Below, piece by piece: positions 15,301-38,576 of a stretch of 42,797 nucleotides of DNA. Position 1 is the first letter of the stretch, and every line of letters begins with the position of its first letter. The position numbers and the translations under genes are program-made. The stretch is from a virus, in IMG/VR virus record IMGVR_UViG_3300037584_006182, positions 1 through 42,797 of that record; one strand, given 5' to 3'. The notes below the pieces were generated by a model. The model was not told the origin of the DNA. It searched no databases and worked only from the letters and a program-made list of their open reading frames with translations.

Positions 15301-18300
15301 TTGATAAATGTTCCTGGACACTTCTTTGTGACTGGAGAGGAATTGACATATGCCTCTGACAGCACTGCAATCGGAATCGCTACAACTGCGTTTGCTGGTG
15401 TCGGTGCTACAGATGTATTGCCATCCACCGTATATGCCATTAAAGTTGATGATCAGAATATCAGACTTGCTAGATCTGCCGAAGATGCTCTAAAGTCTGT
15501 TCCAGTTCCTCTTGATATTACTTCTGTTGGTGTTGGAACAGAGCACTCATTTACGGCAAGAATTCCAAATACTAAGTGTATTATTGCCATTGATAATCAA
15601 ATTCAATCTCCTATCGTTTCTACTGCCGTTACAACTGGAATTGGTAAGACAATTAGTCTAACTGATGACATTATTGAGTTTACTGGAATTACCTCATTCT
15701 TTGGTGGAGATTTAATTTTAATTGATGATGAAATTATGAAGATCAATACTGTTAGTGTTGGCAACACTAATCAAATATTGGTTGATAGGCAATGGATGGG
15801 TACAGGACTATCCACACATGTTGTTGGTGCAGCGGTAACAAGAGTTGAAGGTGATTATAATATTGTTGACAATAACATCAACTTCATAACAGCACCTAAA
15901 GGGCCAACTCCTTTAAGCAGCACTGCAAATCGTCCAGATGAAAGAGACTGGACTGGTATAACGACATTCTCAACTTTCCAAGGAAGAACATTCCTAAGAT
16001 CTGCTCTAACTGATAGCACAAACGCTGCATACAATACTAACTATGTTTTTGATGACATCTCTCAAGGATTTAATGCAACTGAAAAAACTTTCACTTTAAC
16101 TTCGGCAAATAATAATATCACTGGATTTAGTACAAATAATGCAGTGATACTAATTAATGGAATATTCCAAGGCCCAACTGGTTCTCTTTCAAACAATCAA
16201 GATTATAATTTAACCGAAGGTTCTGGAATAAGCAGTGTTACTTTTGCAGGATCTGCTACCTCTATTGCATATGATGCAAATAATGCATCTATTCCTGTAG
16301 GTGGAGTAATTGTTTCTGTTGGATCGACAGGTGGATTTGGTTATCAACCATTAGTTTCGGCGGGCGGTACTGCTGTTGTTTCCACATCAGGGACAATTTC
16401 TTCTGTTAGTATTGGAAATAGTGGTTCTGGATATCGTGCTGGTATTCAAACTGTCAATGTTGGAGTTACAACTCAAAACACAGGAACTCCTTCAATTGAA
16501 AATATTGGTACAGCAACAATTAGTGGAGGTAACATTGTAAGTGTTACCATTACAAATCCTGGGAGTGGATATACTACCACAAATCCACCAATAGTAATCT
16601 TTGATAATCCACTTTCATATTCAAACATTCCTTTAGAATATAGTAGCACATCTGTTTCTGGATTGGGAACGGAGGCAACTGTAGACATTGTTGTGGGACA
16701 AGGTTCTAGTGTTATTGATTTTGAAATTAAAAATCTTGGATATAAGTATGGCCAACAACAAATTCTCACAGTTCCTGTTGGTGGAAGCACCGGAATTCCT
16801 ACAGATCCAACTAAAACTTTTGCAGAGTTTAAGTTAACAATTGAAAGAACAGAGTCTGATGAATTTGCTGGTTGGCATTTAGGAGAACTTGAGGTTCTTG
16901 ATAAAATTGAAAGTGATTTCAATGGAATTAATAGATCATTTACTCTTAAGAGAAATACTTCTCCTTTAACAATTAGAGCCTCTGAAGGATCTTCAATTGA
17001 CGTTCAGGCGACACTTCTCATATTCTTAAATGATATCTTGCAGGTTCCAGGAGAGGGTTATACTTTTACTGGTGGTAGCACTTTAACTTTTGCAGAACCT
17101 CCTAAAGGCCCCGCAGCTGACGGATCTTTTGCTGGTGACACATGCAAAATTCTTTTCTACAAAGGAAGTGGTGATGTTGATGTTACTTTCCGCGACGTTT
17201 TAGAAACCGTCAAAGAAGGTGACACATTACGTATTATGGGAGAAACTAAGCAGGATATTAGATTGGTTGATGAAGTAACTTCTTCTGACACTGTAAGTAC
17301 ACTTGCATACACTGGCCCTGGAATTGACGGAAATCCAGATAACAAGAGGCCTGTCACTTGGTGCAAACAGCGAAATGATAAATTTATTGATGGACAATTT
17401 GTCAGCAAGAGTAGAGTATTGAATGAGGCTTTGATTAACCCAACCACAAATATTATTCAATCTATTGGGACTGGTACAACAGTTGTCTTTGTAAGTAGCG
17501 TTAAATCTTTCTTCGATCCTCGAAATGAAAATCAATCAACACTAAATATCCAAAAGATAATTATTGTATCTCAAGATTCCGTTGTTGGTGCAGCTGCGAC
17601 AGCAATTGTGTCTGTCGGAGGAACAATATCTTCAATTTCTATAAGTGATGGTGGCAAAGGTTATTCTTCAGCTCCTGCTGTTACGATAGGAAATCCTGTC
17701 GGATATGGAACAACAGCGAGAGCTAATGCTACTGCTACCCTATCTGGAGATGTGGTTACTTCAATCGCAGTTGGTTCCACTTCTGGATTTGGATACACAA
17801 CTACTAGTGTTCCTCAGGTATTGATTGAACCACCAAGTTTGACTGCAGAGGTTAACACTTCCGCATCATATACCGGAGACTTTGGTGGAATTGTTGGTGT
17901 AAAAACAACTTCTGTTGGTGTTGCATCTACTGGTTTTGTTCTTGACTTCTTTATCCCAGTTGATTCTTTCTTGAGAGATACTTCAATTGTTGGATCTGCA
18001 GTGACAATAAGTGGCATTCAAACAGGATATTACTTCACTGTTTCAAATAGTAATGTTGGTAGTGGAGTAACTTCACTCTATCAAGATGGTTCTACTTTAG
18101 GAATAGGGACTCAGTTCTTAGATGGTATATTTGAAGCTGCTGCAGTATCTGTTGCAACCACAGCAGTTGCTGGTGTTGGAGTTACTTATGTTGCAAGAGT
18201 AACCACAAGTGTTTCCAATTTGGGAAATATTTCTGGAATTGGATTGACTGAATATTATGGAGACTTCTCCTGGGGAAGAATCGTACTTGGGGATAGAACA

Positions 18301-19996: not shown

Positions 19997-22900
19997 ATGT
20001 CTCAGGAAACAAATCTCAATGTAGCACCATATTTTGATGATTTTGATGCAAATAATGACTACTACAAAGTATTATTTAAACCAGGATATCCAGTTCAGGC
20101 AAGAGAGTTAACAACTCTACAGTCTATACTGCAGAATCAAATCGAAAGATTTGGACAACACTTCTTTAAGGAAGGATCTAAAGTAATACCTGGAAACACC
20201 ACGTATAATAAAGAATATTATGCTGTACAGATAGACAATGCTTTCTTAGGAATTCCCATATCAGATTATATTAGTCAGATACTTGGAGCAAAAATTACAG
20301 GACAAGTATCTGGAGTTACTGCTATTGTAAATAAAATTATTTTAGCAAATGAGTCTGAGAGAGGAAATACTACTCTATATGTAAATTATTTGTCATCAAA
20401 CTCTCAGGATAATCTTTCTGGATTATTTTTAGACGGAGAGTCATTAGAAGTAAATGCAACAATAGCATCCGCAAATACAATTATTGCTGTCGGTGAACCT
20501 TTTGCAACCACCATTGCAGACTCTGCAACTGCAATTGGATCTGCATTCTCCATTTCAAATGGAATTTATTTTGCAAAAGGACAATTTCTTGGCGTATCTG
20601 ATGAAACAATTCTTTTAGATCAATATGACAACTCTCCCAATTATAGAATAGGTTTATTAATTAATGAGGAGATTGTCAATTCAGATATTGATAATTCCTT
20701 AAATGACAATTCAAAAGGTTTTAATAATTATTCTGCTCCAGGTGCAGATAGATTAAAAATCACCGCATCTTTATTCAAGAAAGAATTAGATGATTTTGAT
20801 GATAATAATTTTGTAGAATTAGCCACAGTCACAAACGGAAGATTAAGAAGTAAGAAAAATACAACAGATTACAACATCATTGCAGATGAACTTGCTAGAA
20901 GAACATATGCAGAATCTGGAGACTACTATGTAACTCCATTTGATGTCTCTTTGAAAAACTCCCTGAATGATGGTATTGGAAATAGAGGAATATTTAATTT
21001 AAATCAACAAACTTATGGTGGTTCAAGTCCCTCCGATGACTTGGCATTATATCAAATTTCTCCAGGTAGAGCTTTTGTTAAAGGATATGATGTTGAAACA
21101 ATTGGAACCTCATACTTAGATGTTTTAAAACCAAGAACAACAAAGGTTTTAAACAATCAGTCCATAAACTATAGCACTGGAGCTACACTAAAACTCAACA
21201 GAGTTCATGGTGCTCCTACTATTGGAATAGGTAATACATACGTTTTAAGCTTAAGAGATTCTAGAGTAGGATCTAATCAAACTGCATCTGCAGGTAAAGA
21301 AATTGGATTAGCAAGAGTTTATGATTTTAATTTAGAATCTGGATCATATACTCTTTCAAATCTTGATATTAACCAGTGGAAAATTTCTTTGTTTGATGTT
21401 CAGACATTTACAGAAATATCATTAAATGAACCAATTACTTTATCAACACCAACTTTTGTTGAAGGAAAGCACAGTGGTGCCAGTGCATTTATAAGCACCT
21501 CAGTAACTTCTAGTGCATCTTTGACTCTTTATGATACAAAAGGAGATTTTGTTAAAAATGAACCATTTATTTTCAACGGTGTTGAAAACAGTAGAGTAGC
21601 CATAGCAGTAACATCCTTTGGTATTTCGGATGTTAAATCAGTTTCTCATATAGTTGGTTCTGCATCGACATTTACTGCTGATACAATTCAAACAGAATTA
21701 TTAAACATTGGTGTATCAACAATTAGTGGATTTTCTGGTTCTGGTGGAATTAGCACAATTTCTAGTATCAATCCACAGTTTCCAGGACAATTAAAGGCAA
21801 AAAATCTTCTTAAATTTAGTAATCAAACTTCTCCTGATCCAGTTTTTGCAGAAGTTGTTAGTGTTGGATCTTCTGTTGTAACTGTGACAGGAATTCAAAC
21901 CGTCACAGGAGTTGTTGATGGAGACTTGCCTGCAAGTCAGTTAGCTATTTCTAATCTCGCAGTTATTTCAACCAATCTTGAAGGAACTGATGATGACTCA
22001 TTCTTTACCGAACTTCCAAAACAAAACATTTATGAGGTTGATTTAACTGATGCATCTCTTAGCATAAGAAAGTCATTTGATGTAACCATTAGTAGTGGCC
22101 AACTTTCTTCTGCAGTTAGTGCGGGAACTAATGAATCTTTCTTACCATTTACTAATTCAAGATATGAATTAATCAAAAAAGATGGAACAATTGAAGCATT
22201 AACAACAGACAAGGTTGATATTAGTGCCGATGGAAGTCAAATTCAAATCTATAATCTTAGTTCTGGAAATGATGATGCAACTCTGATTGCAACTCTGAAA
22301 AAATTAAAACCAAAATCAAAAGTTAAACTGCAAAATAGAGTTTCTAGTTTGATTGTAGATAAATCAAAATCAACATCTTCTGGAATCGGAACTACTACTT
22401 TAAATGATGGGTTAACTTATGATAACTATGCATATGGAACAAGAGTTCAAGATAGTAAAATTTCCCTTAATGAACCAGATATTATCACAATTCACGGCAT
22501 TTATGAGTCTGTAAACACCTCTGATCCTTCGGCACCCAAAGTTACACTGTCTTCAATTAGTGGCCCAACTGGAAGAACCTCAGATATTGTCATTGGTGAA
22601 ATGATGAAAGGACAAAGTTCTGGAGCCATGGCTATTTGCGCTGAGAGATTAACAGATTCTCAAATATCGTTCATTCACAAAAATAATAAAAACTTTAAAG
22701 AAGGTGAAGTAATAACTTTTGAAGAGTCTAATATTGTTGCATCAATCACAACTATAGAGACTCCGAGTATCAATATATCCACTCGCTATACATTTGATAA
22801 TGGGCAAAAAGAATCTTTCTATGATTATGGATTTTTAACTAGAAAGTCTGATGCTAAAGAACCAAATAGAAAACTTAGAGTATATTTTGCTAGTGGATAT

Positions 22901-25900
22901 TATGAGTCAACTGATGATGGTGACATAACAACAGCACAATCTTATAACTCTTTTGATTATGATACTGAAGTACAAACTGTCAATAATATAAGAAATACTG
23001 ATATTATTGACATTAGGCCTAGAGTTTCTTCTTATACTTCATTTGTTGGAGGAAGATCTCCATTTGAGTTTCATGGAAGAACGTTTACTGGATCTGGAGA
23101 TTCTGCTGCAAATATTTTAGCATCAGATGAAACAATCGTAACGAATTATTCTTTCTATCTTGGTAGAATTGATAGAGTTTACTTGACACCAACCGGAAAA
23201 TTCCAAGTTAAATATGGAACTCCTGCAGAAGCTCCTCAATTACCATCTCAAATAGATGATGCTTTAGAAATAGCAACTATAAATCTTCCTCCATATCTCT
23301 ATGATGTATCTGATGCATCCATTAGATTCTTAGATCATAAGAGATTCAAGATGTCTGATATCAAACGTCTTGAGAACAGAATTAAAACACTTGAATACTA
23401 TACATCATTATCTCTCCTTGAGATGAGTACCTCAAATCTCTTTGTTCCCGATTCTTCAGGTGTCAATAGATTTAAGTCTGGATTCTTTGTTGATAATTTT
23501 ACTTCATTCTTAGCACAAGAAACTTCTATTGAACTTAAAAATAGTGTAGATTTAAACAATCAGGAAATTAGGCCAAAACATTATACAAATTCTGTTGATT
23601 TAATTTTTGGCCCTACAGGAAGTATCGCTTCTGGGGATGATATCGCATTTGTTACTCCAGAAGGAAATAATATTTCTAAAACTGGAGATATTATTACTTT
23701 AGACTATAGTGAAATTGAATGGTTAAGACAAACTTTTGCAACTAGAACTGAAAGTGTAACACCATTCTTGATTAGTTTCTGGAGTGGAAACATGGAAATG
23801 TCTCCACCTTCTGATAACTGGGTTGATACTGTTAGTGTTGAAGCAAGAGTTATTGATACAGAAGGTAATTTTGCTCAAACTATTGCGGAGGCATCCAGAA
23901 CCCTTAATGTAGATCCTCAAACTGGATTTGCACCTACAATATGGAACTCATGGCAAACTAATTGGACTGGTGAGGAAAGTTCAGCTGCAAGATCTACAAG
24001 AGATGTTAGACAGAGAAGAGGGAACGATGGGACATTTACTGAAACCATTCAGAATACATTTACAGATACTGTTGAGAGAGGTGTAGAAAGCAGAACAGGA
24101 ACTAGAACTGCCGTTATTGAGCAATTTGACAGAACCTCTCAGGGAAATAGAGTTGTTAGTAGAGATCTAATCTCTTTCATGAGATCTAGAAATATTCAGT
24201 TTAATGCTGAAGCCGTAAAACCACAAACTCAGATTTATCCTTTCTTTGATGGTGTTGATGTTTCTGCATTCTGTGTTCCAAAACTTTTAGAAATCGCAAT
24301 GATTTCTGGATCATTCCAAGTTGGAGAAACTGTTGTTGGAAGAACAAGGCCTATCGGCGTCCTTCCCCTTGATACCAGAAATGTTGATGCAAGCATTACG
24401 TTTAGAGTTGCAGCAACAAATCATAAAGAGGGCCCATTTAATTCTCCATCAAGAAGGTACACCACAAATCCATATGATAGACAACAATTATCTGGATCAT
24501 ATTCATCAACTTCTTCTATTCTAAACATTGATACTTTCTCACTGTCAAACCAACCTGAGGGAACATTCTCTGGATACGTTGAAACAGGGATGATTTTAGT
24601 GGGACAAACCAGTGGTGCTCAAGCAACAGTAACCAATCTCAGACTTATATCTGATATATCTGGCACTATACAAGGAAGTTTCTTTATTCCAAATCCAAAT
24701 AATACTTCAAATCCAAGATTTGAGACTGGAGATAAAGTTTTTACTCTTATTAACAATGTTGATAATGATCCAAATTCAGCAACTTCAATTGCTCAAGAAG
24801 GATTTATCTCCTCTGGAACATTAGAAACTACTCAAGAAACTATTGTCTCTGTGCGAAATGCAAGAGTTGACAGAGTAAGTGCTATCCAAGAAAGAGATGT
24901 TGCTAGAGTAACAGGAACAGAAATTCTTGATACTCAAGTTATTGCTTCTTCGTTCCAATCAGATCCACCTCGCAATACAGATCCATTATCACAATCCTTC
25001 TTAGTTGATGAAGACTCTGGAGTCTTTATAACTAAGTGCGATGTATTCTTTGAAACAAGGGATGAAAATGACATTCCCATTACGATGCAAATCAGAACAA
25101 TGGAGAATGGACTTCCAACTACAAGAGTTCTTCCCTTCTCTGAAGTAAACTTAACTCCATCAGAGGTAAATGTTTCTGCAGATGGTTCTGTTGCCACTAC
25201 ATTTGATTTTAGAGCTCCAGTTTATCTTGAAGGTGGACGAGAATATTGTGTAACCCTGCTATCATCTTCAACACAATATAACGTGTTTATTTCTAGGGTT
25301 GGAGAAGTTGATTTTATTACACAGACATTTATTTCAAACCAACCATATCTTGGATCTCTGTTTAAGTCACAAAATGGTTCTACATGGGAACCAAGTCAGT
25401 GGGAAGATCTTAAGTTTACCCTATACAGAGCAGACTTTGTTGAAACGGGTTCTGTTGAATTCTATAGTCCAGAATTAACTGAGGGTAATAGAGGCATTGC
25501 ACAGTTGATGCCAAATTCTCTTAACTTAAATTCCAAAGAAGTCAGAATTGGTATTGGATCTACTTTGCAGGACACTGTACTCACTTTTGGCAATACTATT
25601 ACTCAACTTGGAACTGATGGTTCTGGCAAATATGTTGCAAACGCAGGTGTTGCAACCGATACTCTTCGTATCATCAATGCAGGTATTGGTTATACTCCAG
25701 GTGTAGGACACTCCACATTTAATAATGTTCCTCTTACCACCATAACCGGAAATGGAAGAGATGCACGAGCAGAAGTTACCGTTAGAAATGGAATAGCTAT
25801 TGGAGCAACAATAGTCTCCTCTGGTAAGGGATATGTTCAAGGTGACGTTCTTGGAATAGGAACAATTGGAAACAATTCTCTTGGACTTGGAGCAAGATTA

Positions 25901-27424
25901 TCAGTTGTGTCAATCGCACAAACTAGTCAATTTGTTCTTCATAACGTTCAAGGAGACTTCTCAATAACAGGTGTTGGAAATACTCTTCAGTTTGTTAACA
26001 ACTCTGGAGTTACAACAGATGTAAATGCGGCTCAAGGTGGTAACGTTTTAGTTAATGAAATTATAACAAATAATGACGGACTTCATATTCAAGTCAATCA
26101 TAAAAACCATGGTATGTATTTTGACGAAAACTTTGTAACAATTTCAGACGTACAAACTGATATCATACCAACTAGATTGTCTGAAGCCTATGATTCTTCA
26201 TCAACTAGTCCATTAGTTGTTGATAGCATCTCAAATCTCACTTTATTTGAAAATGTTGGTGTTGGAACAACAAATGCTGGTTATGTGTTGATTGGCGATG
26301 AAATCATATCCTATGAAGATACGACTAGCACCACTCTTGCTGGAACAATCACTAGAGGAGTTGATTCGACAACATCTAGAAATTATCCAGTGGGAACTCC
26401 TGTTTTCAAATATGAGTTGGGAGGAGTTTCTCTTAGAAGAATTAATAAAACTCACAACTTGGAGAGTGTAACTGTTGCAAATCCAATAGGATTTGATTCT
26501 TACAATGTAAAACTTGATATGGGTGCAGCAGGAACAGGAAGAACAACTTCAGATGGTTATCCATCGTTGTTTGTAGGAGAAACTAAGTTTGCTGGAGGAG
26601 ATTCCATAAAGGCAACTCAAAATATTCCTTATGAAATTATAACTCCATTAGTTCAGAACCTCAACGTTCAGGGAACATCTGTTGATGCAGAGGTTAGAAC
26701 TGTAAGTAGTAGAAGTCTTAGTGGATCTGAAACGCCCTATGTAGATAGGGGATTTGAACCAATTACATTAAATGAACCAAATTATTTGGAAAATGCAAGA
26801 TTGATTGCATCAAGAGTAAATGAAACTAACAAAATTACATCAATTTCTGGAAATAAATCTATGAACTTGAGAGTTAATCTCAATAGTACAGATTCTAGAG
26901 TAAGTCCTGTTATTGATACTCAAAGAGTGAGCGCAATTTTCACCTCAAATAGAGTCAATGATATTGTAACTAATTACATTACTGATAGTAGAGTTAATAG
27001 TCTTCTTGATGATCCAACGGCTTTCCAATATATTTCCAAGGAAATAACTTTAGAAAATCCCGCATCATCCCTTAAAATTATTGTTGATGCTCATGTTAAC
27101 ATTCACTCCAACATAAGAGCATTCTATTCTATAAGTGAATCTAGTAATTTTGAACCTATTTTTGTTCCCTTCCCAGGATACAATAATATTAATGATAGAG
27201 GAGAGATTATTGATGTTGCGGATAGCGATGGACTTCCTGATACTTTCATTGCTCCATCCAAACTCATTGGATTTAGAGACAATGATGTTGACTATAAGGA
27301 ATATTCATTCACCATCGATGAACTTCCTTCATTCAAATCTTATAGAATTAAACTTATTATGACATCTACCAATCAGGCACATGTTCCTAGAATGAAAGAC
27401 TTGAGAGTTATTTCCTTAGCGTAA
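19997..27424 (+). CDS. Very large baseplate or tail-fibre-connector protein, DUF4815-type, 2475 residues
   Basis: The N-terminus matches DUF4815: FDDFDANNDYYKVLFKPGYP, VQARELTTLQSILQNQIERF and FKEGSKVIPG. Near residue 1390 comes a RSRNIQFNA ... YPFFDGVDVSAFCVP stretch, and from about 1660 to 1810 a DPLSQSFLVDEDSGVF ... PVYLEGGREYCVTLL ... GSTWEPSQWEDLKFTLYRA module. I know these as recurring parts of large phage tail proteins. G.GY and RG-type modules lie near 25680-25850 and 26250-26415. It occupies the slot of T4 gp9-gp12 and none of those is otherwise visible, so it may take over part of their roles. That is inference. It starts 6 bases after gp8. Confidence 0.8.
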   Translation: MSQETNLNVAPYFDDFDANNDYYKVLFKPGYPVQARELTTLQSILQNQIERFGQHFFKEGSKVIPGNTTYNKEYYAVQIDNAFLGIPISDYISQILGAKITGQVSGVTAIVNKIILANESERGNTTLYVNYLSSNSQDNLSGLFLDGESLEVNATIASANTIIAVGEPFATTIADSATAIGSAFSISNGIYFAKGQFLGVSDETILLDQYDNSPNYRIGLLINEEIVNSDIDNSLNDNSKGFNNYSAPGADRLKITASLFKKELDDFDDNNFVELATVTNGRLRSKKNTTDYNIIADELARRTYAESGDYYVTPFDVSLKNSLNDGIGNRGIFNLNQQTYGGSSPSDDLALYQISPGRAFVKGYDVETIGTSYLDVLKPRTTKVLNNQSINYSTGATLKLNRVHGAPTIGIGNTYVLSLRDSRVGSNQTASAGKEIGLARVYDFNLESGSYTLSNLDINQWKISLFDVQTFTEISLNEPITLSTPTFVEGKHSGASAFISTSVTSSASLTLYDTKGDFVKNEPFIFNGVENSRVAIAVTSFGISDVKSVSHIVGSASTFTADTIQTELLNIGVSTISGFSGSGGISTISSINPQFPGQLKAKNLLKFSNQTSPDPVFAEVVSVGSSVVTVTGIQTVTGVVDGDLPASQLAISNLAVISTNLEGTDDDSFFTELPKQNIYEVDLTDASLSIRKSFDVTISSGQLSSAVSAGTNESFLPFTNSRYELIKKDGTIEALTTDKVDISADGSQIQIYNLSSGNDDATLIATLKKLKPKSKVKLQNRVSSLIVDKSKSTSSGIGTTTLNDGLTYDNYAYGTRVQDSKISLNEPDIITIHGIYESVNTSDPSAPKVTLSSISGPTGRTSDIVIGEMMKGQSSGAMAICAERLTDSQISFIHKNNKNFKEGEVITFEESNIVASITTIETPSINISTRYTFDNGQKESFYDYGFLTRKSDAKEPNRKLRVYFASGYYESTDDGDITTAQSYNSFDYDTEVQTVNNIRNTDIIDIRPRVSSYTSFVGGRSPFEFHGRTFTGSGDSAANILASDETIVTNYSFYLGRIDRVYLTPTGKFQVKYGTPAEAPQLPSQIDDALEIATINLPPYLYDVSDASIRFLDHKRFKMSDIKRLENRIKTLEYYTSLSLLEMSTSNLFVPDSSGVNRFKSGFFVDNFTSFLAQETSIELKNSVDLNNQEIRPKHYTNSVDLIFGPTGSIASGDDIAFVTPEGNNISKTGDIITLDYSEIEWLRQTFATRTESVTPFLISFWSGNMEMSPPSDNWVDTVSVEARVIDTEGNFAQTIAEASRTLNVDPQTGFAPTIWNSWQTNWTGEESSAARSTRDVRQRRGNDGTFTETIQNTFTDTVERGVESRTGTRTAVIEQFDRTSQGNRVVSRDLISFMRSRNIQFNAEAVKPQTQIYPFFDGVDVSAFCVPKLLEIAMISGSFQVGETVVGRTRPIGVLPLDTRNVDASITFRVAATNHKEGPFNSPSRRYTTNPYDRQQLSGSYSSTSSILNIDTFSLSNQPEGTFSGYVETGMILVGQTSGAQATVTNLRLISDISGTIQGSFFIPNPNNTSNPRFETGDKVFTLINNVDNDPNSATSIAQEGFISSGTLETTQETIVSVRNARVDRVSAIQERDVARVTGTEILDTQVIASSFQSDPPRNTDPLSQSFLVDEDSGVFITKCDVFFETRDENDIPITMQIRTMENGLPTTRVLPFSEVNLTPSEVNVSADGSVATTFDFRAPVYLEGGREYCVTLLSSSTQYNVFISRVGEVDFITQTFISNQPYLGSLFKSQNGSTWEPSQWEDLKFTLYRADFVETGSVEFYSPELTEGNRGIAQLMPNSLNLNSKEVRIGIGSTLQDTVLTFGNTITQLGTDGSGKYVANAGVATDTLRIINAGIGYTPGVGHSTFNNVPLTTITGNGRDARAEVTVRNGIAIGATIVSSGKGYVQGDVLGIGTIGNNSLGLGARLSVVSIAQTSQFVLHNVQGDFSITGVGNTLQFVNNSGVTTDVNAAQGGNVLVNEIITNNDGLHIQVNHKNHGMYFDENFVTISDVQTDIIPTRLSEAYDSSSTSPLVVDSISNLTLFENVGVGTTNAGYVLIGDEIISYEDTTSTTLAGTITRGVDSTTSRNYPVGTPVFKYELGGVSLRRINKTHNLESVTVANPIGFDSYNVKLDMGAAGTGRTTSDGYPSLFVGETKFAGGDSIKATQNIPYEIITPLVQNLNVQGTSVDAEVRTVSSRSLSGSETPYVDRGFEPITLNEPNYLENARLIASRVNETNKITSISGNKSMNLRVNLNSTDSRVSPVIDTQRVSAIFTSNRVNDIVTNYITDSRVNSLLDDPTAFQYISKEITLENPASSLKIIVDAHVNIHSNIRAFYSISESSNFEPIFVPFPGYNNINDRGEIIDVADSDGLPDTFIAPSKLIGFRDNDVDYKEYSFTIDELPSFKSYRIKLIMTSTNQAHVPRMKDLRVISLA

Positions 27425-30787: not shown

Positions 30788-31795
30788 ATGTTTGAGTATT
30801 TTTATCACGAAATTTTAAGAAGAACTATTGTATCTTTTGGTACACTGTTTAATAATATTGAAATTCAGCAAACAGACTCTTCAGATAATGTCAAAAATGT
30901 AGTCAAAGTTCCTCTTGCTTATGGCCCTACTCAAAAGTTTTTAGCTAGGATTGAGCAGTCTGCAGACTTGAGTAAGAAAGTTCAAATTTCATTACCAAGA
31001 ATGTCATTTGAATTTACTGGACTGCAATATGATCCATCTAGAAAAGTAACAACTACTCAAACTTTTGTCACACAGAATGTAGAAGATAAGAGTGAGGTTA
31101 GAAAGGCATATATGCCAGTTCCTTACAATATGTCATTTGAATTATCAATATATACCAAATTAAATGATGATATGCTCCAAATTGTGGAGCAAATTTTGCC
31201 ATATTTTCAACCATCATACAATCTAACCGTAGATTTGGTTGAGTCTATTGGAGAAAAAAGAGATATACCAGTTGTCATAGAAAATATTTCTATGCAAGAT
31301 GATTATGAAGGAGATTTTAATTCTAGAAGAGCATTATATTACACTATAAGATTTACCGCCAAAACATACATGTTTGGCCCAGTTCAAGATACTTCTGCAG
31401 CATCGAAAGATATTATCAAAAAAGTTTCTATTGGATATGTTGCTGGAGACACAACAAAAAGTCCATCCAGAGATATTACATATTCTGTTATACCTAGAGC
31501 GATTAAGAGTTATACAGACAACGTTGTTACAAATCTCTCTAGCGATATTGGAGCATCAGGAAAATATGTTGAAGTTAATGATTCCTCAGTAATTCCTGAT
31601 GGAAGTTATATTGTTGTCGATAATGAGGAAATGTATGTTCTCAGTATTATTTCCGATACTAAAATTAAAGTTGAGAGAGGAAAAGATGGAACAGGAGCCG
31701 CTTCTCACGTATCAGGAGCAGAGGTAAAACTGATCACTGATGCAGATGACGCTGCAATTGAAATTGGTGATGATTTTGGATTTGATGGATTGTGA
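30788..31795 (+). CDS. 15: Tail sheath stabiliser gp15 with C-terminal extension
   Basis: The N-terminus FEYFYHEILRRTIVSFGTLF and NNIEIQQTD match T4 gp15, as do the middle parts AYGPTQKFLARIEQ, LPRMSFEFTGLQYDPSRK and YMPVPYNMSFELSIYTKLND. T4 gp15 (272 residues) is the hexameric tail terminator that caps tube and sheath and binds the neck. Here there are 335 residues. The extra 80 or so at the end carry a module with IPDGSYIVVDNEEMYVLSI, VERGKDGTGAASHVSGAEV. The stop TGA overlaps a possible GTG start of gp16. Confidence 0.93.
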   Translation: MFEYFYHEILRRTIVSFGTLFNNIEIQQTDSSDNVKNVVKVPLAYGPTQKFLARIEQSADLSKKVQISLPRMSFEFTGLQYDPSRKVTTTQTFVTQNVEDKSEVRKAYMPVPYNMSFELSIYTKLNDDMLQIVEQILPYFQPSYNLTVDLVESIGEKRDIPVVIENISMQDDYEGDFNSRRALYYTIRFTAKTYMFGPVQDTSAASKDIIKKVSIGYVAGDTTKSPSRDITYSVIPRAIKSYTDNVVTNLSSDIGASGKYVEVNDSSVIPDGSYIVVDNEEMYVLSIISDTKIKVERGKDGTGAASHVSGAEVKLITDADDAAIEIGDDFGFDGL

Positions 31796-31800
31796 TTAGT

Positions 31801-32229
31801 ATGACAAAAAAATTTGATGAGTTAAATGATGCATTTGATGTATCTGGGGATATAGTTTCTAGTGAGATTGAAAAAATTGAACCTGAAAGAGAGAGGCGAG
31901 ATATAAACGGCAATGATGTCAAAAAAGATTATGAATACACTAGAGGCAATTTATATTCTTTGATCGAAAAGGGGCAAGAGGCTATCAATGGCATTTTAGA
32001 ACTTGCCCAAGAGAGTGAGATGCCTAGGGCTTATGAAGTTGCTGGACAATTAATTAAAAACGTCGCTGATGCCACTGATAAATTAATGGAACTTCAAAAG
32101 AAATTGAAGGATGTTGAAGAAGAGAAGCAATCTAAAGGCCCATCTACAGTCAATAATGCCTTGTTTGTTGGTTCAACAGCAGAATTGGCAAAGATGCTCA
32201 AGTCTGGACTAAAGGAAGAAGATAAATAA
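31801..32229 (+). CDS. 16: Terminase small subunit gp16
   Basis: With ATG 31801 the protein has 142 residues. GTG 31792, overlapping the gp15 stop, would add three. T4 gp16 has 164. Matching features are a KKDYEYTRGNLYSLIEKGQE helix, the long central helix with SEMPRAYEVAGQLIKNVADA, a coiled coil (LMELQKKLKDVEEEKQ), and the C-terminal NNALFVGSTAELAKML signature. Small subunits form rings that recognise concatemeric DNA and regulate the large subunit. The partner gp17 lies 4.7 kb away, with three genes inserted between them. Confidence 0.9.
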   Translation: MTKKFDELNDAFDVSGDIVSSEIEKIEPERERRDINGNDVKKDYEYTRGNLYSLIEKGQEAINGILELAQESEMPRAYEVAGQLIKNVADATDKLMELQKKLKDVEEEKQSKGPSTVNNALFVGSTAELAKMLKSGLKEEDK

Positions 32230-32232
32230 AAT

Positions 32233-34158
32233 ATGGGAGAGAAATCCCAAAGTAATTTTACTTATAGTTCAATGGCGGCTGCTGAGAATAACAATTTGCC
32301 ATCTTTAGATGATTTTCTTATTGAGGAGGATTTACCTTCTGTAGAAGATTATCTTGAGAAAGAAGAAGAGGAATTAATAACTGAAGAAGTTGAAACTATT
32401 GAAGATGTTAATGGGAACACCTTCGCAGAGGTAAAGGATATTGTTCCACCCTGGCCAGAACTTCTCCGTCTTATCAATGACGTTAGAGAAGAAATTCCAC
32501 AAATTCCAGAAATTAAATATTATGACGTAGAGTTAGAAAAACTTTGCGAAGTAATTGATGGTATTAAAGATTCAATACCAGAAATACCAGAATTTCCTGA
32601 AGTAAAATATTACGATAAAGAAATTGAAGCAATATGTGAGCAAGTAGATTTAGTTCGTTCTTTTATATCCGAAAAGATAGAAGAGTTACCAGAAGTAAAA
32701 TATTATGATGAGCAAGTAAAAGATATAGAAGATAGAATAGAATCTATCAATCAAAACATCACAAGTCTCCCTCAACCAAAGTATTATGAGGAAGATTTAT
32801 TCTCAATAAAAAAAGATATTGAGAATGTAAAAAACTCTATCCCTACATTTCCCAAATGGGTTAATGAAGTTAATGAAGTACCAGATTTTTCTTGGATAGG
32901 CAAAACCTTCAGTGTTATCGATGATGATTTTATCAAGGTAACCGACACAATTGATGTTTTACGTGAGACTGTAGATCTCAATCTTAAGGAACTGTCTGAA
33001 GATATTGATAAAAAAAGATTTGAAGGTAAAGTAGAACTTACCACCAAATCTGAGGAAATACAAAATAAAATTCAAGAAGAGAAGAATAAAATTTGGAAAG
33101 AACTAAGAGAATCATCACTCAAAATATGGGAATATCATAAAGAATTTAAGGACGATGATAGAAAATTAAAGAAACAAATACTTGGCGAATACAATTCTCT
33201 AAAACAATCTCTTAGTGATAAAATAAGTCAATTCAATGAAAATAGTGTAAAAACTGATAAGTTACTTTTAAATTATTTTGAGGATTTGAAGAAAGAAATT
33301 TCCAATATTCCTGAAATAAAATATTATGATGATGAACTTAGAAAAGTTAATCTTCAAATAAAAGAAATAAGGAATTTAGTATCTGCAATAAAATTAGAAC
33401 AAAAAGTCATTCAAGAATCTTTAGAAGAGGGACTTTTAAATGAACCTCCAAATGAAAAAGAATCTGTAGGAGGACAAAAAGATCCATTAACACCAATGGA
33501 TCAAAAGTTTGCAACACTGGATGATCTTGCAGGCCACTATAGATTGTTTATTAATAGAATTCAACAACAAATTGCTACCATTGGTGGAGGTGGTGCTGGA
33601 TTTATCAAAGATTTAGATGATGTAACTTTTGACGCTGGAATTGGCACTAATAAGTTGTTGATTTATAACGGCTCTAAGTGGGTTGGAATTGCAAGCACCG
33701 CGTTAAGTGGATCGACATCTTTAGTTCAACTGACTGATGTTGATGACTCCAATTTAGGTGATGGTAGATTTTTAAGATATGATGCATCTGCAGAAGAATT
33801 TACTTTTGAACCAGTATCAGCGACTAATCTAGAACTTATAGCAGGAGATATTCAGTCTGGTATATTGACAACCACTAGCACAAGTGATGCTGCTGTCATG
33901 AGTATTAGTGCATCTACATATAGATCTGTCAATTATCAGATTCAAGTTACTAGAGGAACTAACTATAATATGACAACCATTAATGTTATACATGATGGCA
34001 CAGATACGTATATGACAGAATATGGAACAATCAACCAACCTGTTGGTATTGCAACATTTTCATCTGATATAAGTGGGGGATCTCTCCGATTGATTGGACA
34101 TCCGTCTTCCTCATCAAGTACAACATTTAAAGTTATATTTACTGCTTTACAGGTATGA
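32233..34158 (+). CDS. Coiled-coil fibre-like virion protein, 641 residues
   Basis: The first 80 residues are very acidic. Four repeats of about 30 residues follow, each with a K-Y-Y-(D/E) core (32510-32790), then long charged helices and a fifth K-Y-Y-D copy near 33318. The last 200 residues turn beta-rich: a Gly-rich hinge (GGGGAG), GFIKDLDDVTFDAGIG, SLVQLTDVDDSNLGDGRFL, and a C-terminal IHDGTDTYMTEYGTI module. Such a helical shaft with a beta tip fits a trimeric fibre. Since T4 places fibritin (wac) near gp13-gp16, a neck whisker is one possibility, but no fibritin homology is visible. It overlaps the next gene (ATGA). Confidence 0.7.
   Translation: MGEKSQSNFTYSSMAAAENNNLPSLDDFLIEEDLPSVEDYLEKEEEELITEEVETIEDVNGNTFAEVKDIVPPWPELLRLINDVREEIPQIPEIKYYDVELEKLCEVIDGIKDSIPEIPEFPEVKYYDKEIEAICEQVDLVRSFISEKIEELPEVKYYDEQVKDIEDRIESINQNITSLPQPKYYEEDLFSIKKDIENVKNSIPTFPKWVNEVNEVPDFSWIGKTFSVIDDDFIKVTDTIDVLRETVDLNLKELSEDIDKKRFEGKVELTTKSEEIQNKIQEEKNKIWKELRESSLKIWEYHKEFKDDDRKLKKQILGEYNSLKQSLSDKISQFNENSVKTDKLLLNYFEDLKKEISNIPEIKYYDDELRKVNLQIKEIRNLVSAIKLEQKVIQESLEEGLLNEPPNEKESVGGQKDPLTPMDQKFATLDDLAGHYRLFINRIQQQIATIGGGGAGFIKDLDDVTFDAGIGTNKLLIYNGSKWVGIASTALSGSTSLVQLTDVDDSNLGDGRFLRYDASAEEFTFEPVSATNLELIAGDIQSGILTTTSTSDAAVMSISASTYRSVNYQIQVTRGTNYNMTTINVIHDGTDTYMTEYGTINQPVGIATFSSDISGGSLRLIGHPSSSSSTTFKVIFTALQV
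32510..32790 (+). repeat. Four tandem K-Y-Y-(D/E) repeats of about 30 residues
   Basis: The cores are PEIKYYDVELEKLCEVIDGI, PEVKYYDKEIEAICEQVDLV, PEVKYYDEQVKDIEDRIESI and PQPKYYEEDLFSIKKDIENV. They start near 32510, 32599, 32692 and 32774, about 84-93 bases apart. Each joins a Pro-rich turn to a helix with heptad-like hydrophobics. A fifth copy (PEIKYYDDELRKVNLQIKEI) stands alone near 33315. Confidence 0.85.
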
Positions 34159-34604
34159 AAACTTTTAAACAGTTTGTTTCGGAACAACCAACCAATAGTG
34201 TAGGAAACGGTGGGTACACGCGCTCTGCAGACGCTTCTGGCCCTGTTGCAGGAGACGATAAGAGGTTGTTTAGAGGCCCTGATGATTTACTTTCTCAAGA
34301 TTTTCAAACACCAGCAGAGACTGGGGAAGATAGATATGCAAGATTTTCAAGCATTTATCCTGTGATGAAAGTTAGTTTATCAAATAATGATGGGGACGGC
34401 CCATCCATAGATTCTATGGTTGCTGCATCTAAAGAATTTGTTGCCAAAATGGATGATGCTAGTTATGAGAGGGTAAGAAAAAACTTTAGACAGTTTAGAG
34501 AGTCTTGGACTAATAAATATAAAAAGAGTATTGACTGCTCTAATCCGAAAGGATTCTCACAAAAAGCACATTGTGCCGGACGTAAAAAGAGAGCTAAAAA
34601 ATGA
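34155..34604 (+). CDS. Candidate internal-head protein with capsid-targeting-like N-terminus, 149 residues
   Basis: The first ten residues, MKTFKQFVSE, closely resemble the T4 capsid-targeting sequence (MKTYQEFIAE) that brings internal proteins into the prohead. In T4 that peptide is removed by the gp21 protease after Glu. Cleavage after E10 here would follow V-S-E. The C-terminus is basic and cysteine-bearing (DCSNPKGFSQKAHCAGRKKR and a Lys/Ala end), a short motif I recall as recurrent in marine phages. The middle has no known domain. Both ends are coupled to neighbours by ATGA overlaps. The role is inferred, not shown. Confidence 0.7.
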   Translation: MKTFKQFVSEQPTNSVGNGGYTRSADASGPVAGDDKRLFRGPDDLLSQDFQTPAETGEDRYARFSSIYPVMKVSLSNNDGDGPSIDSMVAASKEFVAKMDDASYERVRKNFRQFRESWTNKYKKSIDCSNPKGFSQKAHCAGRKKRAKK

Positions 34605-36922
34605 GCAACCCTCGTATTCCAAGAAAACCTGGACAACCAGCAAATTCCAAGAAACATTCTGATCTCTATACGGATGAAAATCCAAAAGGAACAATTCATG
34701 GACTTGGATTTAAAGATGTTGCAACCTCTAAAGCATCTGTTTCTAAAATTCGCAATTCATCAAGATCTCATGCTCACAAAATCCAGGCAGCAGTTGCTAT
34801 GGAGCAGAGAGCAAGAGAAATGGGCAAAACTTCAGAAGCAGCTGTGTATAGAAAATTTATCAACTCAATGAAAGAGAAGACTAAAAAAATGAATGAAGCA
34901 AAAGATCACGAATATTCCATGGCAAGAACACAACTTGCTACGGTGATGAGTGCAGCTAAAAGACTTCGTTCAAAAATGAAAGGTGAAGGAGAAATTGAGG
35001 CTTGGGTACAATCAAAAATTACCAAAGCTGCAGATTATCTTGATACTGCTGCCGATTATGTTGATAGTGGTGAAATGAATGAAGAGATGAAGAAATGTCC
35101 TTCAGGACAATATTATTGCTTTACTGACAAAAAGTGTAAAAAAATTCCCATGGGTTATCATGTAGGTGGTAGAGGTATGCTTGAGAAAGATACCGAAACT
35201 AAAAAGTCAAATGGTAATGGTAATGGTAACGGTAATGGTAGTGTTTCTAACGGTAATGGTAATGGCAATGGTGGTAATGGCAATGGGAGTGGTAATGGTG
35301 GATCCAACGGTGGGGGAATGGGAGAAGAAGTAGTTCATGAAGGCGGTGACTTACGTCAGTGGTTCAAAGGATCCAAATCAAAAGATGGTAAAGGTGGTTG
35401 GGTTAATGTTGTAACTGGTGGCACATGTGCCAGTGATAAACCTGGAGAGGGAACACCAAAATGCGTCTCTTCAAAGAAGAGAGCAAGTATGACTAAGGCA
35501 GAGAGACTTTCTGCTGCTAGAAGAAAAAAGAAAGCAGATCCTGGACAACAGCAAAAAACAGGTGCTGCTAAACCAACTTATGTAAGTACTGAAAGCCCTC
35601 GGAAAAAATCAATGAAAGAAGGAAAAGATCACCCTAAAAATGTAAAGGGTATTGCAAAAGAACTAGATAAAGCAGTTGAAATGCATAAGAGTCAAGCAAA
35701 AAGACTCAGAAAAGCTGGAATTTCAGAGGGTTCAGATAAAAAGGGTAAGGGCAGCGGAACTAAAGATGCCTGTTACCATAAAGTAAAATCTCGTTACAGT
35801 GTTTGGCCTAGTGCGTATGCGTCAGGAGCACTAGTCAAATGTCGGAAGGTAGGCGCTGCAAACTGGGGCAACAAGTCTGAAGGACTTTCCTGGGATCAAC
35901 TAACAGAGAAGTGCTGGCCTGGATACGAGAAAAAAGGAATGAAGACAATGTTTGGAAAAAGATATCCAAACTGTGTGAAAAAGAAAGCAACTAGAAAAGA
36001 GCAGGTTGAAGAGGCGGTAAGACTCCCTGCTAAAAATGGCAATCTAATTGATACCTATTTCTTTTTCCGTGGGAAATATTATGCATTAAAAATGTTTTTC
36101 CCACAAATTTCAATACCTAAAAAATCTGATGTAGAATCTCAGGTTCAAAAGGTATATCCTGGCGCAAGATTAGCAACCTACAAAGTCACGGACTATGAAC
36201 CAGGACAACCAATCCTCCATGCAGAAGAAAGCAGAGGATACAGTAAAACAGTTGAGGAAACTTTTGAATATGACTCAGGAACACCAACAAAAATCACTGA
36301 GAAAACCGAAGGGGCATTAGAAGAAAAAAAATCAAATGATCCCTGTTGGGACACTCATGAAATGAAGGGAATGAAGAAAAAAGGAAACCGTATGGTTCCC
36401 AATTGTGTTCCCAAGGAAGAATTTGTTTCTGAAGAAGATTATGATCGTATGAAAGATCGCCGCATGGAGCGTGGTGGTGTTGGTAGTAATGTTGATTACA
36501 GCAAACCACCCGGTAAACCAAACCTTGCAGGTAAGAAGAAACCAAAGAGTGGCGGTATGTCTGCACTTGATTTTGTAAAAGCAGATATTCGTTCTAAGTA
36601 TGGTAAGGGCGCTCTCATTGACACCAAAAAGAAAAATGAAGAAGTTCAATATGAAGATTGGCAAAAAGAGAACCGTAAAGACAAGACTGATGGTTTGAGC
36701 CAAAAAGCAGTTGATGCATATCGCAAAGAAAATCCAGGATCAAAACTCAAAACTGCTGTCACTAAAAAACCATCCGAATTAAAAGCAGGTTCAAAAGACG
36801 CAAATCGTCGTAAGTCATTCTGTTCTAGAATGAAAGGAATGAAAAAGAGACTTACCTCTGCTAAAACTGCTAGAGATCCAGATAGCAGAATCAATAAAGC
36901 CCTTAGACGTTGGAATTGCTGA
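34601..36922 (+). CDS. Mosaic Lys-rich, Cys-containing modular protein with DUF5872, 773 residues
   Basis: The protein is a string of short basic modules. A helical HEYSMARTQL ... ADYLDTAADYVDSGE lies at 103-157, and a CPSGQYYCFTDKKCKK ... GYHVGGRG at 165-192. An Asn-Gly linker (203-238) and a DLRQWF ... GGWVNVVTGGTC module (250-313) follow. DUF5872 is at about 381-427. Two copies of CW...KGMK...(P)NCV lie at 438-458 and 582-602 and flank an FFFRGKYYALKMFFPQ unit (487-502). The end is KSFCSRMKGMKKRLTS ... ALRRWNC. Glu-ending tripeptides suited to a gp21-like protease lie between modules (VHE247, ISE376, VEE471, LEE575). Candidate prohead core or packaged DNA-binding protein. Function unproven. 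Confidence 0.75.
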   Translation: MSNPRIPRKPGQPANSKKHSDLYTDENPKGTIHGLGFKDVATSKASVSKIRNSSRSHAHKIQAAVAMEQRAREMGKTSEAAVYRKFINSMKEKTKKMNEAKDHEYSMARTQLATVMSAAKRLRSKMKGEGEIEAWVQSKITKAADYLDTAADYVDSGEMNEEMKKCPSGQYYCFTDKKCKKIPMGYHVGGRGMLEKDTETKKSNGNGNGNGNGSVSNGNGNGNGGNGNGSGNGGSNGGGMGEEVVHEGGDLRQWFKGSKSKDGKGGWVNVVTGGTCASDKPGEGTPKCVSSKKRASMTKAERLSAARRKKKADPGQQQKTGAAKPTYVSTESPRKKSMKEGKDHPKNVKGIAKELDKAVEMHKSQAKRLRKAGISEGSDKKGKGSGTKDACYHKVKSRYSVWPSAYASGALVKCRKVGAANWGNKSEGLSWDQLTEKCWPGYEKKGMKTMFGKRYPNCVKKKATRKEQVEEAVRLPAKNGNLIDTYFFFRGKYYALKMFFPQISIPKKSDVESQVQKVYPGARLATYKVTDYEPGQPILHAEESRGYSKTVEETFEYDSGTPTKITEKTEGALEEKKSNDPCWDTHEMKGMKKKGNRMVPNCVPKEEFVSEEDYDRMKDRRMERGGVGSNVDYSKPPGKPNLAGKKKPKSGGMSALDFVKADIRSKYGKGALIDTKKKNEEVQYEDWQKENRKDKTDGLSQKAVDAYRKENPGSKLKTAVTKKPSELKAGSKDANRRKSFCSRMKGMKKRLTSAKTARDPDSRINKALRRWNC
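35207..35314 (+). repeat. Asn-Gly microsatellite
   Basis: A GGTAAT-type hexanucleotide repeat with interruptions encodes about 36 residues made almost wholly of Asn, Gly and Ser. It joins two cysteine modules of the 773-residue protein and looks like a flexible linker. Such simple repeats can change length by replication slippage. Confidence 0.85.
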
Positions 36923-36929
36923 GTGAACT

Positions 36930-38576
36930 ATGTCTGATAATGTATATCTTGGTAATCCCAATTTAAAAAAAGCAAATACACCGATTGAATTCACGGAAGA
37001 ACAAATCCTAGAATTCTTAAAGTGTAAGGAAGATCCTGTCTACTTTGCTAATAAGTATATAAAGATTGTTTCCTTGGATGAAGGACTCACTCAGTTCCAT
37101 CCATATCATTTTCAAGAGAAGTTAATTAACAACTTCCACAACAACAGATTTAATATCTGTAAAATGCCACGACAGACTGGTAAATCCACTACAGTCGTAT
37201 CTTACCTTTTGCACTATGCTGTTTTCAATGACAGTGTTAACATTGGTATTCTGGCAAACAAAGCAGCAACCGCAAGAGAACTTCTTGGAAGGTTACAGAC
37301 TGCATATGAAAACTTACCTAAATGGATGCAGCAGGGTATCATAGCATGGAACAAAGGATCTTTGGAGTTGGAAAATGGGAGTAAGATACTGGCAGCTTCT
37401 ACGTCTGCAAGTGCTGTCCGAGGCATGTCGTTTAACATTCTCTTCCTCGACGAATTCGCCTTCGTTCCAAACCATGTTGCGGACTCCTTCTTTGCATCTG
37501 TTTATCCTACTATTACTTCTGGTAAAAACACCAAGGTAATTATCGTATCTACCCCACATGGTATGAATCATTTCTACCGTATGTGGCATGATGCAGAGAA
37601 ACAAAAAAATGAATATGTACCAACGGATGTTCATTGGAGTGAAGTTCCTGGTAGGGATGATAAATGGAAAGAAACTACAATTGCAAACACATCCGAAGCA
37701 CAATTTAAGGTTGAGTTTGAATGTGAATTTTTAGGATCAGTTGATACTTTGATTGCTCCCAGTAAACTGAGGACAATGGTATATGACAATCCATTGAAAA
37801 GAAATGCTGGACTGGATGTCTATGAACCACCAAAAGAAAATCACGACTATGTGATGACTGTTGACGTTGCTAGAGGAGTTGGTGAAGACTACTCAGCATT
37901 TGTCTGTGTAGACATCACAGAGTTCCCGCATAGAGTAGTTGCAAAATATAGGAACAATGACATCAAACCGATGTTGTTCCCAAATATTATCTACGAAATA
38001 GCTAAAAATTATAATAGTGCATATATTCTTTGTGAGGTAAATGATATTGGAGATCAAGTTGCAAGTATTCTTCAATATGATTTAGAGTATCAAAATCTAT
38101 TAATGTGTTCAATGAGAGGTAGGGCAGGACAGATTGTTGGGCAAGGATTCTCTGGCAAAAAGACACAATTAGGTGTCAAGATGTCCAAAACAGTTAAGAA
38201 GGTTGGATCTTTAAACTTAAAGACTCTGATTGAAGAAGATAAGTTAATATTCAGTGACTATGAAATAATTTCAGAACTGACTACTTTTATTTCAAAGCAT
38301 AATTCTTTTGAAGCTGAAGAGGGATGTAATGATGACTTAGCAATGTGTCTTGTCATCTATGCTTGGTTAGTCCAAATGGACTATTTTAAAGAGTTAACTG
38401 ATCAGGACGTTCGTAAAAGATTATATGAGGAACAAAAAAATCAGATTGAACAAGATATGGCTCCATTTGGATTTTTAAGCGATGGGTTGAGTGATGATAG
38501 TTTTGTTGATAGTGAAGGAGATAGATGGTTCACTGATGAATATGGTGATAGATCTTATATGTGGGACTACAGATGA
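36930..38576 (+). CDS. 17: Terminase large subunit gp17
   Basis: This is the DNA-packaging motor with ATPase and nuclease domains. Walker A is PRQTGKST (80-87), Walker B ILFLDE (170-175) with catalytic E175, and the coupling motif STPHG (207-211). The RNase H-like nuclease has D312 (MTVDVARG), E369 (CEVNDIGD) and D468/D469 (GCNDDLAM), so all expected acidic residues are present. It has 548 residues, against 610 in T4. It docks on the gp20 portal and cuts concatemers with gp16. GAGTGA just upstream may serve as ribosome site. The next small ORF overlaps its stop. Confidence 0.97.
   Translation: MSDNVYLGNPNLKKANTPIEFTEEQILEFLKCKEDPVYFANKYIKIVSLDEGLTQFHPYHFQEKLINNFHNNRFNICKMPRQTGKSTTVVSYLLHYAVFNDSVNIGILANKAATARELLGRLQTAYENLPKWMQQGIIAWNKGSLELENGSKILAASTSASAVRGMSFNILFLDEFAFVPNHVADSFFASVYPTITSGKNTKVIIVSTPHGMNHFYRMWHDAEKQKNEYVPTDVHWSEVPGRDDKWKETTIANTSEAQFKVEFECEFLGSVDTLIAPSKLRTMVYDNPLKRNAGLDVYEPPKENHDYVMTVDVARGVGEDYSAFVCVDITEFPHRVVAKYRNNDIKPMLFPNIIYEIAKNYNSAYILCEVNDIGDQVASILQYDLEYQNLLMCSMRGRAGQIVGQGFSGKKTQLGVKMSKTVKKVGSLNLKTLIEEDKLIFSDYEIISELTTFISKHNSFEAEEGCNDDLAMCLVIYAWLVQMDYFKELTDQDVRKRLYEEQKNQIEQDMAPFGFLSDGLSDDSFVDSEGDRWFTDEYGDRSYMWDYR

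Follow-up and report, generated by a model that had tools for sequence, protein, structure and literature searches.

A modular polyprotein encoded beside the terminase gene of a marine T4-like cyanophage has conserved prohead protease-type sites at its module borders and is probably head cargo

A 773-aa protein encoded just upstream of gp17 in a T4-like cyanophage is probably a head-cargo polyprotein, with gp21 predicted to cut at its module borders and the pieces to be kept with the DNA; we assign this reading a probability of about 0.7. The window (the whole 42,797-nt stretch of DNA analyzed; Table 1) is part of a T4-like cyanophage, in which gp13 to gp19 were recognized in order, and its closest isolates (S-SM2, Bellamy, and SynMITS9220M01) showed 78 to 82% DNA identity across the matched parts. 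Two very long open reading frames (ORFs) lie in the structural gene region (6343 to 18405, 4020 aa; 19997 to 27424, 2475 aa). The polyprotein gene is real. It belongs to the T4-GC 119/phrog_727 family, both by sequence match (phrog_727, E = 3.8e-121) and by its place near gp16 and gp17, and the S-SM2 counterpart SSM2_109, noted as GC 119, occupies the same position and is annotated as hypothetical only. The ORF, length, and coordinates given in a preliminary description of this DNA, and the modules named there (CxxxxxxC, CW..PNCV twice, FFFRGKYY, and SFC..RRWNC), were all present.

In the proposed chain, flexible linkers would connect about eleven modules, small and mostly basic, and each module would be entered via a gp21 prohead protease site ([V/I/L/M/F]-x-E↓). 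The chain would be taken into the prohead core alongside small proteins that carry a capsid targeting sequence (CTS), such as the 149-aa protein encoded upstream. We infer that gp21 would cut the borders during head maturation and that the freed pieces, mostly basic (net +69 for the chain), would remain in the head as internal proteins, alongside the DNA, and be delivered together with it. What the modules might do is a guess from their charge and from the analogy with T4 internal proteins: they may neutralize DNA charge and/or act on the host after injection.

Table 1. Features of the polyprotein locus (positions in the window; arrows mark module borders or predicted cuts)
Feature	Coordinates	Strand	Remarks
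gp16 small terminase	31792..32229	+	context gene
149-aa protein, predicted to be capsid targeted	34155..34604	+	stop overlaps polyprotein start (ATGA)
Capsid targeting sequence MKTFKQFVSE	34155..34184	+	T4 IPII/IPIII, MKTYQEFIAE (AF158101); predicted cut after E10
Copy of mature gp23 N-arm (QPTNSVGNGGYT..VAG)	34185..34259	+	S-SM2 gp23, IAE↓QPTNAVGNGGYT..VAG
KSIDC module (SWTNKYKKSIDC..) after FRE↓	34503..34601	+	C-terminus of 149-aa protein
773-aa modular polyprotein	34601..36922	+	T4-GC 119/phrog_727 family; net charge +69
Segment 1-99, SNPRI module	34601..34897	+	helical, net +12; border MNE99↓AKDHEYS
Segment 100-161, DHEYS module	34898..35083	+	helical; border MNE161↓E
Segment 162-247, CPSGQYYC module and Asn/Gly linker	35084..35341	+	border VHE247↓GGDLRQWF
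Segment 248-340, WF..C..C module	35342..35620	+	resembles DUF5872 C-half; net +15; border MKE340↓GK
Segment 341-376, KELDKAVEMHKSQ module	35621..35728	+	helical; border ISE376↓G
Segment 377-436, KDACY/VWPSAYASG module	35729..35908	+	resembles DUF5872 N-half; border LTE436↓KCWPGY
Segment 437-471, CWPGY..PNCV hairpin module	35909..36013	+	border VEE471↓AVRLPA
Segment 472-575, FFFRGKYY beta-beta-alpha-beta domain and linker	36014..36325	+	border LEE575↓KKS
Segment 576-611, second CW..PNCV module	36326..36433	+	border VSE611↓EDYDRM
Segment 612-685, EDYDRM module	36434..36655	+	border VQYE685↓DWQK, P3 = Q
Segment 686-773, DUF6321 module	36656..36919	+	
gp17 large terminase	36930..38576	+	context; immediately downstream of polyprotein gene

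The preliminary description had listed seven Glu-ending tripeptides as lying in linkers between modules (VHE247, ISE376, LTE436, VEE471, ITE567, LEE575, and VSE611). All of them are present and six were found at module borders, ITE567 being the exception; the list omitted the M-x-E borders (99, 161, and 340) as well as the final one, E685↓DWQK. The number of I/L/V-x-E tripeptides proved no signal in the single protein, since it stood at chance level (8 versus 5.9 in shuffled sequences, P = 0.23; 14 versus 8.7, P = 0.04, for [ILVMF]xE), and the count within the lone sequence was dropped as evidence. The signal came from the relatives (eighty related loci fetched, about 80 relatives compared). 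Hydrophobic residues occupied P3 at 226 of 297 border Glu residues compared to 570 of 2629 other Glu residues of the same proteins, an odds ratio of 11.5 that is not corrected for relatedness. We then read border columns without requiring Glu, identical contexts being removed as the only ancestry correction. Four columns contained E in 107/107 distinct contexts, never D, with a free P2: FRG (48/48; P3 V/I/M/L in 48/48), KDACY (22/22; P3 hydrophobic in 21/22), DWQK (24/24; 19/24), and GAAW (13/13; 7/13). Comparison columns with a majority of E held 552 E, 37 D, and 183 other residues. E was the usual but not the invariable residue in the columns for WF, KSIDC, and the loosely defined CW. Within 8 residues of the module start, [ILVMF]xE was found for CW in 62/62 cases (15.3 in linker shuffles), for WF in 50/55 (7.5), and for FRG in 25/25 (6.4). 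The KDACY border was not significant in this fixed window (11/42 versus 7.5) because its linker is longer, which the column test resolves. Alignment starts, which were not picked by eye, had the motif at most 2 residues away in 41% of cases compared to 10% at random. Glu-rich linkers were ruled out as the cause of the borders by per-linker shuffling and by the other Glu residues in the same proteins.

T4 gp21 cleaves after L/I-x-E, and residues 8 and 10 of the T4 targeting peptide control its processing, which Asp at position 10 blocks (PMC9026906). At the level of sequence, the border consensus [V/I/L/M/F]-x-E matches this rule, and sites of the L/I-x-E type, as expected for a substrate of gp21 (Peptidase S77), are conserved between the domains. 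Given the Asp block in T4, the conserved E, the free P2, and the lack of D thus look like maintained protease sites. These columns also bear on the possibility that an internal virion protein stays whole, its [VILMF]xE borders representing uncut relics of fused CTS genes or recombination joints. Such fusions are visible (FRQFRE↓SW in the 149-aa protein and SFQQFQE↓KCW in the relative L027), and a cleaved product is known for none of the proteins; yet relics should drift, and the four borders with invariant E and mostly hydrophobic P3 have not, so that we regard uncut relics as unlikely. The preliminary inference of a polyprotein of internal head peptides with predicted gp21-type cutting is supported by the conserved borders, at which P1 is always E in these columns, and further by the shuffling, the modules behind CTSs, the single-module genes in phages without detectable gp21, and the orthologues in virions described below. 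The Q at P3 of the last border (QYE685) counts against the cargo reading.

An AlphaFold model of the 773-aa protein resembled beads on a string (mean pLDDT, 62.8; pTM, 0.29), with low-confidence stretches at residues 153-163, 201-249, 313-346, 369-387, 425-435, 463-473, and 539-579. Sites 161, 247, 340, 376, 471, and 575 fall inside these predicted linkers and site 436 lies one residue outside; the model places MNE99 inside an unbroken helix and VSE611 where a helix begins, both outside the linkers, which speaks against the cargo reading. Foldseek returned no significant match for the whole model and a best E value of 0.57 for the FRG domain alone (pLDDT, 78). A second structure comparison of this domain gave Z scores of at most 5.2 (archaeal ribosomal proteins, aminopeptidase, T7 Gp2, YkzG, and Dmd). 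A sequence search against solved structures yielded no hit for the polyprotein family and nothing noteworthy for the CTS protein of FRG type. Most modules are basic. The clear Pfam match was DUF6321 at residues 693-771 (54.1 bits; gathering cutoff, 28.5). The DUF5872 module of the preliminary description was roughly right, but the resemblance extends over two modules and stays below the cutoff: DUF5872 seems to cover KDACY (profile positions 7-43) and WF (49-99), of which KDACY scored 15.4 against a gathering cutoff of 27.5 and WF gave no hit. The stand-alone CRP-7 gp63 scored 27.3 against the same profile.

Relatives contain the same modules in differing orders and numbers, and modules interchange between polyproteins and targeted or stand-alone genes. 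The SNPRI module, which opens the 773-aa protein (MSNPRI), is internal in two relatives (after VSEE in L012 and after MTEE in L061), and the EDYDRM module is also present in S-SZBM1_194, after ISE. DUF6321 occurs behind the targeting sequence MKTFKQYITE in S-SZBM1_192, and an FRG-like domain occurs behind MKSFKSFLSE in S-SZBM1_191 and behind MKTFKQFMSE in SSCSM1_30. The homology of the polyprotein FRG domain to the CTS-bearing protein was detected by hhalign (95.8%, E = 7.7e-9), and in several relatives the gene for this CTS protein immediately follows that of the polyprotein. The polyprotein gene is often followed directly by a second small CTS gene (MKSFKQFLSESVNISGDF..) (L014:11352, L023:5079, L033:8154, L043:1327, and L085:10961). 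In roseophage CRP-7, three modules constitute three consecutive genes adjoining terL. gp21 (PF03420) was detected in 8/8 T4-like records (7/7 modular or related cyanophage records and T4), a count from other records, the window itself stopping short of the gp21 gene of this phage; a Peptidase_S77 gene was detected in none of the nine records (0/9) in which DUF6321 or KDACY stands as a gene of its own. Stand-alone genes in phages without detectable gp21 and fusions in phages with gp21 thus suggest that the modules act as independent proteins, joined where a protease can separate them.

The 149-aa protein starts with MKTFKQFVSE↓QPTNSVGNGGY, in which MKTFKQFVSE fits the CTS rules at positions 4, 7, 8, and 10 (PMC9026906). 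The following QPTNSVGNGGYT..VAG scored 71 against the S-SM2 gp23 arm (shuffle maximum, 43); by alignment with T4 FLTE↓A, cyanophage gp23 would be cut after IAE. Across 52 distinct contexts, the KSIDC module stood 32 times behind a CTS, 16 times behind an internal [ILVMF]xE, 4 times at an N-terminal Met, and never elsewhere. The 773-aa protein itself (MSNPRIPRKPG at its start) has no N-terminal CTS; neither do most members of its family, L066 being the one clear exception, which counts against the cargo reading. CTS-like cores occur inside the chain in 8/82 polyproteins. Two linker motifs are candidates for directing the chain into the prohead: SxWRx[DE]L (also SxWRx[DE][LF]..E), which occurs in 27/82 proteins compared to 0.1 expected in shuffles, and DIIKPEPL, which occurs in 24/82, far above shuffles (relatives L006 to L085).

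Others have detected relatives of the 773-aa protein in purified virions. S-CREM2 gp137, which carries FRG and DUF6321 modules, was identified from 4 peptides covering 4.1% of its sequence, and gp160 from 7 (PMC10665884, Table 3), both in CsCl-purified virions; the gp160 sequence consists of a gp23-arm copy and a KDACY module. The S-SCSM1 orthologue is labeled a virion protein in its record, and 45 phage-encoded virion proteins of this phage were identified by mass spectrometry of CsCl-purified particles (PMC9602691). Counting against the cargo reading are the gp137 coverage of just 4.1% and the absence of S-SZBM1 modular protein 194 and CTS proteins 191 and 192 from the 30 virion proteins detected for that phage. 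Low gp137 coverage would also suit a role in the prohead core or scaffold comparable to that of T4 gp22, gp67, or gp68, in which gp21 would shred the protein, most fragments would exit, and the modules would shape assembly rather than serve as cargo; T4 gp22 and gp67 yield several gp21 fragments, most leaving the head (PMC9026906). The modules are, however, conserved, Cys-containing, partly folded, and stand-alone in phages without detectable gp21, which makes the separate modules, and not the whole chain, the likelier functional units, and we rate a scaffold role as slightly less probable than uncut relics. A cytoplasmic, non-virion accessory that binds DNA or assists packaging with the terminase would account for the strongly basic character, for the gene position between gp16 and gp17, and for the stand-alone modules near terL in CRP-7 and MEP402, but other stand-alone copies are neighbors of the capsid gene or distant from terL, and gp137 and the gp23-arm/KDACY protein gp160 come from CsCl-purified virions; this explanation appears the least probable of all.

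The association between CTSs and virions may extend beyond the modular proteins. A strict CTS pattern matched three ORFs in the S-CREM2 genome, and 3/3 were in the virion proteome (P of about 0.013). A relaxed pattern gave 5/6 (P of about 0.003) once internal starts and spurious ORFs of very small size had been excluded; its rule was set after some sequences had been viewed, and we treat this second count as a lead. ORFs 6, 12, 13, 14, and 154 of the S-CREM2 record (OR473000) were examined among virion proteins with T4-type CTS-like starts. When S-SZBM1 was scanned with a regular expression for CTSs, most matches were spurious; 191 and 192 alone look real. In cyanophage virions, a SAM hydrolase starts with the CTS MKDFDSFLEE and a kinase with MKRFDAFLTE (GTG start). 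Cytidylyltransferases start with MKNFSSFLTE, MKSFFQFLSE, or MKSFLQFLKE (L201 to L204, from Bellamy, SynMITS9220M01, S-SM2, and S-SCSM1), and a Cas9-annotated virion protein has RFASFMAE close to its start. We consider it somewhat more probable than an even chance that marine T4-like phages release exchangeable, injected cargo from a shuffled polyprotein via the head-maturation protease and that a T4-type CTS is the common address, also for the cytidylyltransferase, SAM hydrolase, kinase, and Cas9-like proteins. This would give a testable job to a gene family with members in hundreds of genomes of marine cyanophages, where its only annotation is hypothetical, and the targeting sequences would offer a concrete explanation for the metabolic enzymes that recur in cyanophage virion proteomes.

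Cargo released from a polyprotein by the head protease would be unusual among tailed phages. Targeting sequences, gp21 specificity, and the fragmentation of gp22 and gp67 are already known from T4; no description of a shuffled cargo polyprotein or of cyanophage targeting sequences was found in the literature that could be searched, where one T4 review was the only paper to connect cyanophages with capsid targeting sequences. Phage polyvalent proteins (Iyer et al. 2017; PMC5512222) are likewise multidomain and packaged or injected, and some are processed, but they carry enzyme or anti-restriction domains along with built-in peptidases, and no such Pfam domain exceeded the cutoff in the 773-aa protein. 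In phiKZ and SPN3US, head proteins carry multiple x-x-E motifs behind which the prohead protease cuts (PMC10052503); these cuts remove N-terminal propeptides, whereas those in the 773-aa protein would free many separate modules. T4 IPI, IPII, and IPIII are small, basic, head-internal proteins and fast-changing cargo, whose targeting peptide of 10 to 19 residues is cut off by gp21 after L/I-x-E (PMC9026906, PMC3012670). The 149-aa neighbor has the same layout; the 773-aa protein differs in its about eleven units per chain, its lack of an N-terminal CTS, and its lack of recognizable shared sequence. T4 gp67 and gp22 resemble the proposal in that they are precursors cut repeatedly by gp21, with small fragments in the mature head, but they are acidic core or scaffold proteins, whereas the units of the 773-aa family are mostly basic, conserved, and shuffled.
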